In this document: positions 4,548 to 7,184 of the stretch, in pieces
Position numbering within the stretch: the stretch's first letter is position 1
Layout of the letters: the number at the start of each line of letters is the position of its first letter
Source of the DNA: Halobaculum halobium
Lineage (GTDB): Archaea; Halobacteriota; Halobacteria; Halobacteriales; Haloferacaceae
DNA length: 64,000 bases
Direction: 5' to 3'
Assembly: GCF_030127145.1 (NCBI RefSeq)
Contig: NZ_CP126158.1
Coordinates: forward strand, 1,550,001-1,614,000
Position numbers and translations under genes: made by a program
Notes under the pieces: model-generated
Seen by the model: only the letters and a program-made list of their open reading frames with translations
Told to the model about the DNA's origin: nothing
Databases searched by the model: none

Positions 4548-5291
4548 TCAGTCGCTCTGGATGCGCGGCGCGAGCATGTAGGTCACCTGCCCCAGCCCCT
4601 CGCCGAACTCGTAGTGCAGTTTGACGGGGAACTCCTCGCCGAGTTCGACGCGGACCTCGGCGTCCTTCGGAATGGCCTTGTTCATGTCCTTGAGGTAGTC
4701 GAGGCTGAACAGCGAGTCGGCGGGACCCGCCTGCAGGTCGATGAGGTCCTCGCGGTCGAGTCGGAGGTCCACGTCGTCGGTGTCGCCCTCCGCCTCGATG
4801 AAGAACGCCTCCTCGGCCTCGTCGACGCGCAGGCGGATGTGGTCCGACACCATGTCGGCGGCGGTGATCCCGCGGTCGAGCTGGGCGCCCTCGACGACGA
4901 TCTCCGCGGGGAGATCGAGGTCCGGAATGTCCGGCTCCTGACGGATGGAATCGGGGTCGATGAGCGCGAGTGTGTAGCTCAGGCCGTCGGTCTGGATGAG
5001 GAGCTTGCGGGTCTCCTCGTCGAGTTCCAACTGGATGAGATCGCCAGAGTCGGCCATCCCGGCGATGTCCTCCAGGCGGTTGAGGTTGACACCGATGACC
5101 CCTCCGTCGGCCTCGTAGGATTCGAACGCGGCGGCCTCGAGTGTGAGGTCGACCATGCCGACGTTGGCCGGGTCGACGGCGCGGATCGCGAGTTCGTCCT
5201 CGTTGAGCCGGATCTTGCACTCGTCGACCAGCACGCTCACCGAGTCGAGCGCGTCGCGGAGGGTAGACGCACTCACGATGGCCTTGAACAT
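4548..5291 (-). CDS. pcn: DNA polymerase sliding clamp PCNA
   Basis: 247 residues, the normal length of archaeal PCNA. ATG 5291 is chosen over an in-frame ATG 26 codons upstream because the family starts MFKAIVSA and because the TATA box lies 26 bases before it. Features of the two-domain clamp subunit include the first-domain segment [13 protein letters not shown], the interdomain connecting loop around [10 protein letters not shown], and the C-terminal strand [13 protein letters not shown] that packs the PIP-box partner groove. It forms a homotrimeric ring, loaded by RFC (one subunit, RfcC, is encoded at 45 kb), and tethers polymerases, ligase and nucleases to DNA. The protein is strongly acidic, as expected in a salt-in archaeon. 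It is monocistronic: the HAD gene downstream begins 38 bases later but has no visible coupling. Confidence 0.98.
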
Positions 5292-5316
5292 ATATCGCGG
5301 GCTACGAGTGTGCCCG

Positions 5317-5324
5317 TAAAAATA
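5317..5324 (-). promoter_or_regulatory. TATA box of pcn
   Basis: On the minus strand the sequence reads TATTTTTA inside an otherwise GC-rich stretch, 26-33 bases before the pcn ATG. That spacing predicts a leaderless or nearly leaderless transcript, usual in haloarchaea, and supports the start at 5291. Confidence 0.7.
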
Positions 5325-5440
5325 CCCGCGGTTCCCGTTCCAAGCGAGCCTCTCGATTCCGCGCCCCAACGAACGCGGACGACCGAGGACGCCCGAACCG
5401 GGGCCGTCAGTTCGCGCCCCGGTCTCGATAGGGTAGTGCG

Positions 5441-5449
5441 TAATTTAAA
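5441..5449 (+). promoter_or_regulatory. TATA box of the DUF1508-repeat gene
   Basis: TAATTTAAA lies 32-40 bases before ATG 5481 in an AT-poor background. Together with the pcn TATA box it makes a divergent promoter region of about 190 bases shared by the two genes. Confidence 0.65.
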
Positions 5450-5480
5450 GGAACCAGGACAGAACGTGGTAACAGACAAC

Positions 5481-7184
5481 ATGGCTGAACCTGAAACCGG
5501 TCCGCTCGTCTCGACGTATGAAAAACGGTTTGGAGAGCCCTTCACCACCGACGAGGTGTACGGCTACTGGCTGTTCGTTGCCGGGACGGTCGTGGCTGTC
5601 GTGGGGATGATGCTGTTTCTCACCTCGATGGGGGCGGGGAGAACCGGCGCCCGGGGGATCGCGTACCTCTTCTCCGGGGTCGGCCTCGCCACCGCGTTCG
5701 CCGGCCTCGTCGTCGGCCAGTCGTTCCATCGGACGGCGAAGCGACTGGTGTACGTCGGGCTCGTCGTCTGTCTGGCCGCGATGGCGTGGTTCCTCACCGC
5801 CTTCCCGCAGGAGTGGGCGCTCGATTCCGGAACCGCGCAGGGAGTCGTCGCCGTGTACACCCTCGGACTGGCGCTCATCACGCTCTCGGGTGCGCTCGCA
5901 CCGATCTCGGTGGGGCAGAGTCGGGCTCGGAAAGCGGTCGAGGAACAGCTCGTCGACGCCCGCGCCGACGACGAGGCCGACGACCGGCGCATCGAGGAGT
6001 TGGAGGCGGCAGTCGCAGAGCGCGACGATCAGATCGCGGCCCTCGAATCCGAGATAGCGGAGTCGAACGCGGAGACGGCAGCGGCTCGAACCGAGGCCGA
6101 AGCGGCGAGCGAGGAGACCGCCGCCGCCCGGGCGGAGACGGCGTCGGTGCGCGACGACCTCAACGCCGCGGCCTCCCACGTCAACGCGCTCTCGAAGAGT
6201 TCGGCCACGTTCGACGTGTACCGCGACAAAGCCGGCAAGTGGCGCTGGCGGCTCGTCCACCGAAACGGGAACATCATCGCCACCTCCGGCGAGAGCTACT
6301 CCAGCGACCGGACCGCCCGCCGCGGAATGCGCAGCGTCACGCGCAACGCGCTCGGGGCCGCAGTCGTGTGGCAGCGCGACGAGGAGGAGCCCGAGCCCAT
6401 CGCCGAGCCGGCCGCCGAGGAACCGTCCGCGCGATTCCAGCTGTATCGCGACGACAACGGCGAGTACCGGTGGCGGCTCCGCCACGACAACGGGAACACC
6501 ATCGCGGCCGGAACCCGCGGGTTCTCTTCGAAACGAAACGCCAAAGACGGCGTCGAGTCGGTTCGCTCGGGGATCGGACCGGCCGACTACCTGGAGTTCG
6601 ATCCCGCCGGAGTCGAGGTGTACGAGGACGCGGGCGGCGAGTTCCGCTGGCGACTCGTCCACCGCAACGGCAACATCCTCGGCGACTCCGGCGAGGGGTA
6701 CGCGAACCGGTCGAACGCCCGCAGAGCGGCCGACCGGTTCCAAGAGGCGGCCGGCGAGGCCGCCGTCGACGCCGACTCCGGCGTCCGGTTCGAGACGTAC
6801 GAGGACGCCGCTGGCGACCACCGCTGGCGACTCGTCGCCGCGAACGGCGAACCGATCGCCGACTCCGGGGAGGGGTACAGCTCCCGGTCGGCGCTGACGG
6901 AGGCCGTCGACCGCGTCCGCGAGTACGCACCCGACGCCGACCGGCTCACGATGGCCACGGCCGCTATCGAAGTGCACGAGGACGCCGGCGGCGAGTTCCG
7001 CTGGCGGCTCCGCCACCGCAACGGGACGATTCTCGGCACCTCCGGCGAGGGATACACATCGCGCTCGAAGGCCCTCGACGCCGTGAACAGGGTGAAGCGC
7101 CACGCGCCGAACGCGCCGGTCACAGAGGAGGGCGACGCTGCGGACGCAGAAGCAGACGGCGACGACCGCGGCGACGACGGGTAA
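5481..7184 (+). CDS. Membrane protein with coiled coil and five DUF1508 repeats
   Basis: 567 residues from ATG 5481. The N-terminal 145 residues hold about four membrane helices (for example GYWLFVAGTVVAVVGMMLFL). A long Ala/Glu heptad coiled coil follows at about 155-235. Five copies of a 45-50-residue module start near residues 243, 317, 376, 435 and 494. Each has an aromatic strand, a W/FRWRL core, N-G-N/E and SGEGYSSR-type ending, as in UPF0339/DUF1508 proteins (E. coli YegP, haloarchaeal HVO_2922). DUF1508 proteins are usually one- or two-repeat soluble dimers of unknown function; five copies on a membrane-anchored coiled coil is unusual. The tail is acidic. It is divergent from pcn, followed convergently by a DNA methylase. 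The biochemical role is unknown; a ligand- or polymer-binding scaffold is one inference. Confidence 0.9.
   Translation: MAEPETGPLVSTYEKRFGEPFTTDEVYGYWLFVAGTVVAVVGMMLFLTSMGAGRTGARGIAYLFSGVGLATAFAGLVVGQSFHRTAKRLVYVGLVVCLAAMAWFLTAFPQEWALDSGTAQGVVAVYTLGLALITLSGALAPISVGQSRARKAVEEQLVDARADDEADDRRIEELEAAVAERDDQIAALESEIAESNAETAAARTEAEAASEETAAARAETASVRDDLNAAASHVNALSKSSATFDVYRDKAGKWRWRLVHRNGNIIATSGESYSSDRTARRGMRSVTRNALGAAVVWQRDEEEPEPIAEPAAEEPSARFQLYRDDNGEYRWRLRHDNGNTIAAGTRGFSSKRNAKDGVESVRSGIGPADYLEFDPAGVEVYEDAGGEFRWRLVHRNGNILGDSGEGYANRSNARRAADRFQEAAGEAAVDADSGVRFETYEDAAGDHRWRLVAANGEPIADSGEGYSSRSALTEAVDRVREYAPDADRLTMATAAIEVHEDAGGEFRWRLRHRNGTILGTSGEGYTSRSKALDAVNRVKRHAPNAPVTEEGDAADAEADGDDRGDDG

Follow-up and report, generated by a model that had tools for sequence, protein, structure and literature searches.

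A conserved membrane-bound array of five differentiated UPF0339 (DUF1508/YegP) domains in haloarchaea

UPF0339/YegP proteins occur in bacteria and archaea and structures of them have been available since 2007-2008; to our knowledge, no function is known for this domain (DUF1508). In a 64,000-nucleotide stretch of the Halobaculum halobium genome, here called the window, an open reading frame (ORF) of 567 amino acids at 5481-7184 (+) places five such domains behind a membrane region. The initial annotation had read this design as a multivalent cytoplasmic binding platform at the membrane. The locus thus raises the question of what a membrane-bound series of UPF0339 domains may be built for, and whether its five copies are equivalent.

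By Pfam profile search, DUF1508 was detected five times in the protein (E 2.7e-80); the score for PF07411 (UPF0339/DUF1508) was 264.5 bits over five stretches against a curated cut-off of 22. The NCBIfam HVO_2922 family (NF041908, an equivalog) also gave five matches (E 8.9e-100; 326.7 bits, summed over the five repeats, against 90), and both searches confirm the UPF0339 identity originally assigned to the repeats. Residues 9-148 were assigned to DUF7139 (PF23600; E 5.4e-26; 91.4 bits against a curated cut-off of 30), and this match together with four membrane helices in the AlphaFold2 (AF2) model bears out the proposed membrane anchoring. The boundaries of the repeats (R1-R5) were set with a purpose-built repeat profile, and the gene has the following layout:

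5481..7184, + strand: whole gene, 567 aa, DUF7139 - coiled coil - five DUF1508 (UPF0339/YegP) repeats (Pfam, NCBIfam)
5505..5924, + strand: DUF7139 (PF23600), residues 9-148, four-helix membrane anchor (Pfam E 5.4e-26; helices in AF2 model)
5547..5627, + strand: predicted membrane helix 1, residues 23-49 (AF2 model)
5643..5720, + strand: predicted membrane helix 2, residues 55-80 (AF2 model)
5730..5801, + strand: predicted membrane helix 3, residues 84-107 (AF2 model)
5829..5903, + strand: predicted membrane helix 4, about residues 117-141, continuous with the coiled-coil helix 117-238 (AF2 model; membrane end estimated from sequence)
5913..6194, + strand: Ala/Glu-rich coiled-coil stalk, residues 145-238 (heptad test; helix in AF2 model)
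6204..6365, + strand: repeat R1, residues 242-295, basic with 11 K/R and 4 D/E (Pfam, own repeat profile)
6429..6590, + strand: repeat R2, residues 317-370 (Pfam, own repeat profile)
6606..6767, + strand: repeat R3, residues 376-429 (Pfam, own repeat profile)
6786..6944, + strand: repeat R4, residues 436-488, acidic (Pfam, own repeat profile)
6960..7121, + strand: repeat R5, residues 494-547 (Pfam, own repeat profile)

Each copy had been described as keeping an RWRL core and the turns NGN and SGEGY. The core is indeed present in all five repeats; NGN is found in R1-R3 but is NGE in R4 and NGT in R5, and SGEGY is found in R3-R5 but is SGESY in R1 and GTRGF in R2. Haloferax volcanii HVO_2922 (PDB 6q2z) has the same domain as each repeat (53.8 bits to R1), but is a free 60-residue single-repeat protein without membrane anchor or stalk. 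The array protein, with its membrane domain and five repeats, contains the HVO_2922 domain but is not an HVO_2922 orthologue. Apart from the array, the genome gave a single, weak DUF1508 match, in an ORF that also has a marginal match of the Mur-ligase type (L006; G000:C2, reverse strand); a clear free-standing HVO_2922 seems to be absent from H. halobium.

The AF2 model of the complete protein, calculated from an alignment of 41 relatives, had a mean pLDDT of 84.6 and a pTM of only 0.43, and the latter means that the model does not fix how anchor, stalk and repeats lie relative to one another. It contains three membrane helices, a fourth that runs on to residue 238, and then five β3-α units; this secondary structure and the matches to 2k8e, 2k49, 6q2z, 3bid and 2k7i agree with the β3-α YegP fold. 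In the best heptad register of the stalk, 12 of 13 hydrophobic residues are at a/d positions compared with 5.9 in shuffles, and 2,000 shuffled versions never gave as many; hydrophobic periodicity at 3.5 residues fell short of significance in a Fourier test (p 0.15). The a/d count and the helix in the model support the coiled coil that had been proposed. It is not essential to the family, since some relatives have stalks of only about 18-40 residues without heptads. The charges of the loops and of the segment following the fourth helix fit an N-in/C-in topology, which makes a cytoplasmic position of the repeats plausible. As fold relatives of DUF7139, LTC4 synthase, BAR and eisosome proteins were dismissed, their Z values of 7-9 being within the noise stated for helical bundles.

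DUF7139 itself is present in 181 of 195 members of the order, with weaker matches in three other families of the phylum, and serves haloarchaea generally as a membrane anchor to which several different tails are attached. The four-helix membrane domain is shared by proteins with a DUF7140 tail, such as the paralogue in the same genome (G000:C1:1965686), in which the DUF1508 repeats are replaced by a linker of low complexity and a short module rich in Cys. In this paralogue (L104, 5681-6742) the linker is rich in Ser/Thr/Gly and the 42-residue Cys-containing DUF7140 module (YCGxC...YCG...AC) is possibly metal-binding; relatives of it were seen in many Halobacteriales genomes. A sister family carries 13 divergent repeats on the same anchor (e.g. 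L106, 938 aa). Its tandem units also belong to the DUF1508 family, but differ from the five-repeat array by a period of about 58, a first repeat about 30 residues after the anchor and repeats that are all acidic on average. These proteins (L106, L105, L111, L145-L173; about 930-1000 aa) were counted by hand in about 41 of the 195 genomes, and insertions of 12-40 residues recur at a few of their junctions. DUF1508 was also observed in a soluble haloarchaeal fusion of an Amphi-Trp domain (PF20068) with two repeats (L113, 3487-4137).

For the spread of the five-repeat protein, genomes were counted by hand from the listing of a protein search in 195 Halobacteriales genomes and by reading a subset of the loci. 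About 46 of these genomes, belonging to 8 of the 17 families, had an intact DUF7139 - five DUF1508 protein, and a further 7 had a rearranged version. Roughly one in four of the haloarchaeal genomes sampled thus has this layout. The expectation that DUF1508 proteins normally have one or two repeats does not hold as a rule for haloarchaea, in which arrays of 5 and of 13 repeats are common. The array proteins of Halobaculum saliterrae and H. litoreum are 84 and 83% identical to that of H. halobium in their best segments; in another genome of the genus (G158), the search of the 195 genomes gave no five-repeat array. The distribution is patchy. When 43 proteins were placed in a tree, the Halobaculum clade grouped with family f17 (100/100 support) and not with its own family, and the starred branches require no fewer than three changes for f1 and f12 and four for f4; therefore, transfer or hidden paralogy has occurred.

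Within the array, the spacing of the repeats is partly fixed and partly free. Two linkers, R2-R3 and R4-R5, have a length of exactly 5 residues in each of the 43 distinct proteins; the distances from DUF7139 to R1 (18-107 residues), from R1 to R2 (11-83) and from R3 to R4 (-5 to 28) vary. The nearest repeat in a distant genome holds the same position in 166 of 215 cases, and confusions are mostly R2/R4, R3/R5 and R1/R5. Judged from these comparisons, the repeats are orthologous by position, and the five-copy array is therefore old and not a recent tandem expansion. Selection on every copy, as originally proposed, is supported by this positional orthology, the invariant count of five and the fixed linkers.

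Natural breaks of the array also preserve the positional identity of the repeats. R1-R3 and R4-R5 are encoded by two ORFs with an ATGA overlap in L116 (369-1918) and by two ORFs in L107 (5662-7431), and a second array copy in L115 (1957-3755) is split after R1 (R1 and R2-R5). In L109, two copies were lost, probably when R1 recombined with R3, and the array now consists of an R3-like repeat, R4 and R5; L123 has four repeats. Two frame breaks were observed in addition. In L114 (G003), a run of 11 G is located exactly at the break between stalk and R1 and may reflect an error of sequencing or a site of slippage (phase variation); in L138 (G101), the break is near a C5 run after DUF7139.

The repeats are also differentiated by charge. 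Over the 43 proteins, the mean net charge is +4.4 for R1, -2.2 for R2, -0.4 for R3, -7.0 for R4 and -0.1 for R5, and R1 is net positive in 41 of them, being near neutral in some deep lineages. For Pfam-confirmed proteins encoded next door in the same genomes, the mean for a length of 54 residues is -5.7, and a charge of +4 is reached in only 1.3% of windows of this size, so that a basic R1 is unusual in this acidic proteome. Closeness to the membrane was not supported as the cause, as the basicity of R1 rises with stalk length (Spearman 0.33, p 0.03, for sequences that are not independent). The strong differentiation by position, with R1 at +4.4 and R4 at -7.0, argues against five equivalent binding sites; the copies are not interchangeable sites.

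Models were compared with known folds by Foldseek and VIA-align, the second model being that of Halobellus R2-R5 (m02d3e7179388), which has an R3-R4 linker of about 20 residues. In the two models, the two-repeat proteins E. coli YegP (2k8e; Z 15.3/16.2) and SO_3888 (2k49; Z 14.8/15.6) matched over 112-117 residues; both are soluble, with two repeats only and no anchor, unlike the array protein. The repeat spacing of YegP, about 51 residues as read from the alignment, equals the R3-R4 spacing in most relatives. The 2k8e and 2k49 matches begin at the first residues of R3 in both models, and the VIA ranges extend into R5. A weaker match (Z 8.3, 100 residues, rmsd 2.3) was obtained between residues 63-186 of the Halobellus model, i.e. 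R3-R4, and 7b5h chain AD from the baseplate of a cyanobacterial contractile injection system. Part of this chain resembles the two-repeat YegP fold and is possibly an unrecognised YegP-like insert.

Because the 2k8e and 2k49 matches start at R3 and the 7b5h match spans R3 plus R4, the models favour R3 and R4 as a YegP-type pair, in which the exact packing is a prediction. The fixed linkers had suggested R2-R3 and R4-R5 as two YegP pseudo-dimers; this arrangement is not favoured, given where the matches began in both models. A non-covalent R3/R4 pair would explain why changes of the R3-R4 linker and gene fission are tolerated, with the linkers of R2 and R5 fixed. The array accordingly resembles a mobile R1 joined to a block of four repeats that is organised around an R3/R4 pair.

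Genomic context offers no obvious partner. The following features flank the gene upstream:

5292..5480, no strand assigned: divergent intergenic region, 189 bp, with TTTAAA at 5444-5449 as a possible TATA box for the array gene (sequence, by eye)
4548..5291, - strand: pcn (PCNA sliding clamp), divergent neighbour, linkage not conserved (NCBIfam; comparison of loci)

The divergent layout described for pcn and the array gene is present, with its 189-bp gap, but is not conserved among the loci of relatives. Among the loci tested, homologues of H. halobium pcn were found near the array in L097, L098 (both from Halobaculum) and L140 only, and a functional link to pcn was rejected on this ground. 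Downstream, a dam-family methyltransferase gene is convergent. In the loci sampled, no gene family recurs beside the array across lineages that would indicate an operon or a defence island; neighbours are mostly ordinary unrelated proteins (CysS, GatB, thermosome, DNA ligase, thiolase), and the array gene is solitary.

Our preferred reading, to which we give a probability of roughly 0.45, is that this solitary haloarchaeal protein is a membrane-tethered, probably oligomeric scaffold that would face the cytoplasm, pair R3 with R4 and bind partners. The four DUF7139 helices would fix the protein in the membrane, and the fourth would continue as a helix, probably in a parallel coiled coil, that sets two or more chains side by side in the cytoplasm. 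Each chain would carry the mobile basic R1 and then the block R2-R5, in which R3 and R4 may pack as a YegP-type pseudo-dimer and the fixed 5-residue linkers hold R2 and R5 to them. At the membrane, the array would thus form a rigid, position-specific surface for soluble partners, with R1 as the likeliest contact for an anionic one. That the array binds partners is predicted from its design.

Other readings assign the repeats a more specific or a different task. R1 might contact nucleic acid or a nucleotide-like polymer, the array holding this polyanion at the membrane, perhaps in DNA damage or other stress. That R1 is net positive in nearly all proteins and more basic with longer stalks, and hence not simply membrane-proximal charge, speaks for such a tether, as do the listing of HVO_2922 among perchlorate-induced genes in a DNA-repair section (PMC12175516) and the yegP homologues behind the DNA-damage regulators capK/capS in 57 operons (PMC13373217). 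However, no nucleic-acid-binding fold or motif was seen in the protein, molar KCl screens electrostatics, the charges of R1 could pair instead with the acidic stalk or R4, and R1 is near neutral in some deep lineages; we consider this role unlikely. The fuller version, in which the basic R1 and a four-repeat clamp of the YegP type sit on an oligomeric stalk as a tether for nucleic acid or another polyanion, is rather improbable; if true, it would give the widespread UPF0339/YegP domain a molecular role for the first time.

Similarly unlikely is a structural spacer or membrane organiser whose repeats associate with each other, R1 with a second R1 or with R4 from another chain, into lattices that bind no soluble ligand. 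The opposite charges of R1 and R4 and the multi-chain deposition of the single-repeat structures 6q2z (2 chains), 2k7i (2) and 3bid (8) would fit homo-association, but the patchy distribution and the transfers between families are unlike a core structural element. The same patchy, horizontally moved distribution would suit an accessory defence or stress-signalling protein with repeats that sense a small ligand, and yegP lies beside the immune regulators capK/capS (PMC13373217). Against this stand the mostly housekeeping neighbours in the sampled loci, with no defence island, and the lack of an effector domain in the protein by Pfam, which make such a function very doubtful.

In the literature found, no ligand, partner or phenotype was given for any DUF1508 protein, and no paper named DUF7139 or described the DUF7139 - five DUF1508 architecture. 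The parts were already known, as Pfam lists both domains and NCBIfam recognises the protein. New is the conserved membrane-bound, differentiated array of UPF0339 domains, an architecture without description in the papers found. Its five differentiated copies, invariant linkers, basic copy and gene splits provide concrete handles on UPF0339/YegP function, namely the charge of R1, the R3/R4 interface and the split partners, in organisms related to the tractable Haloferax.
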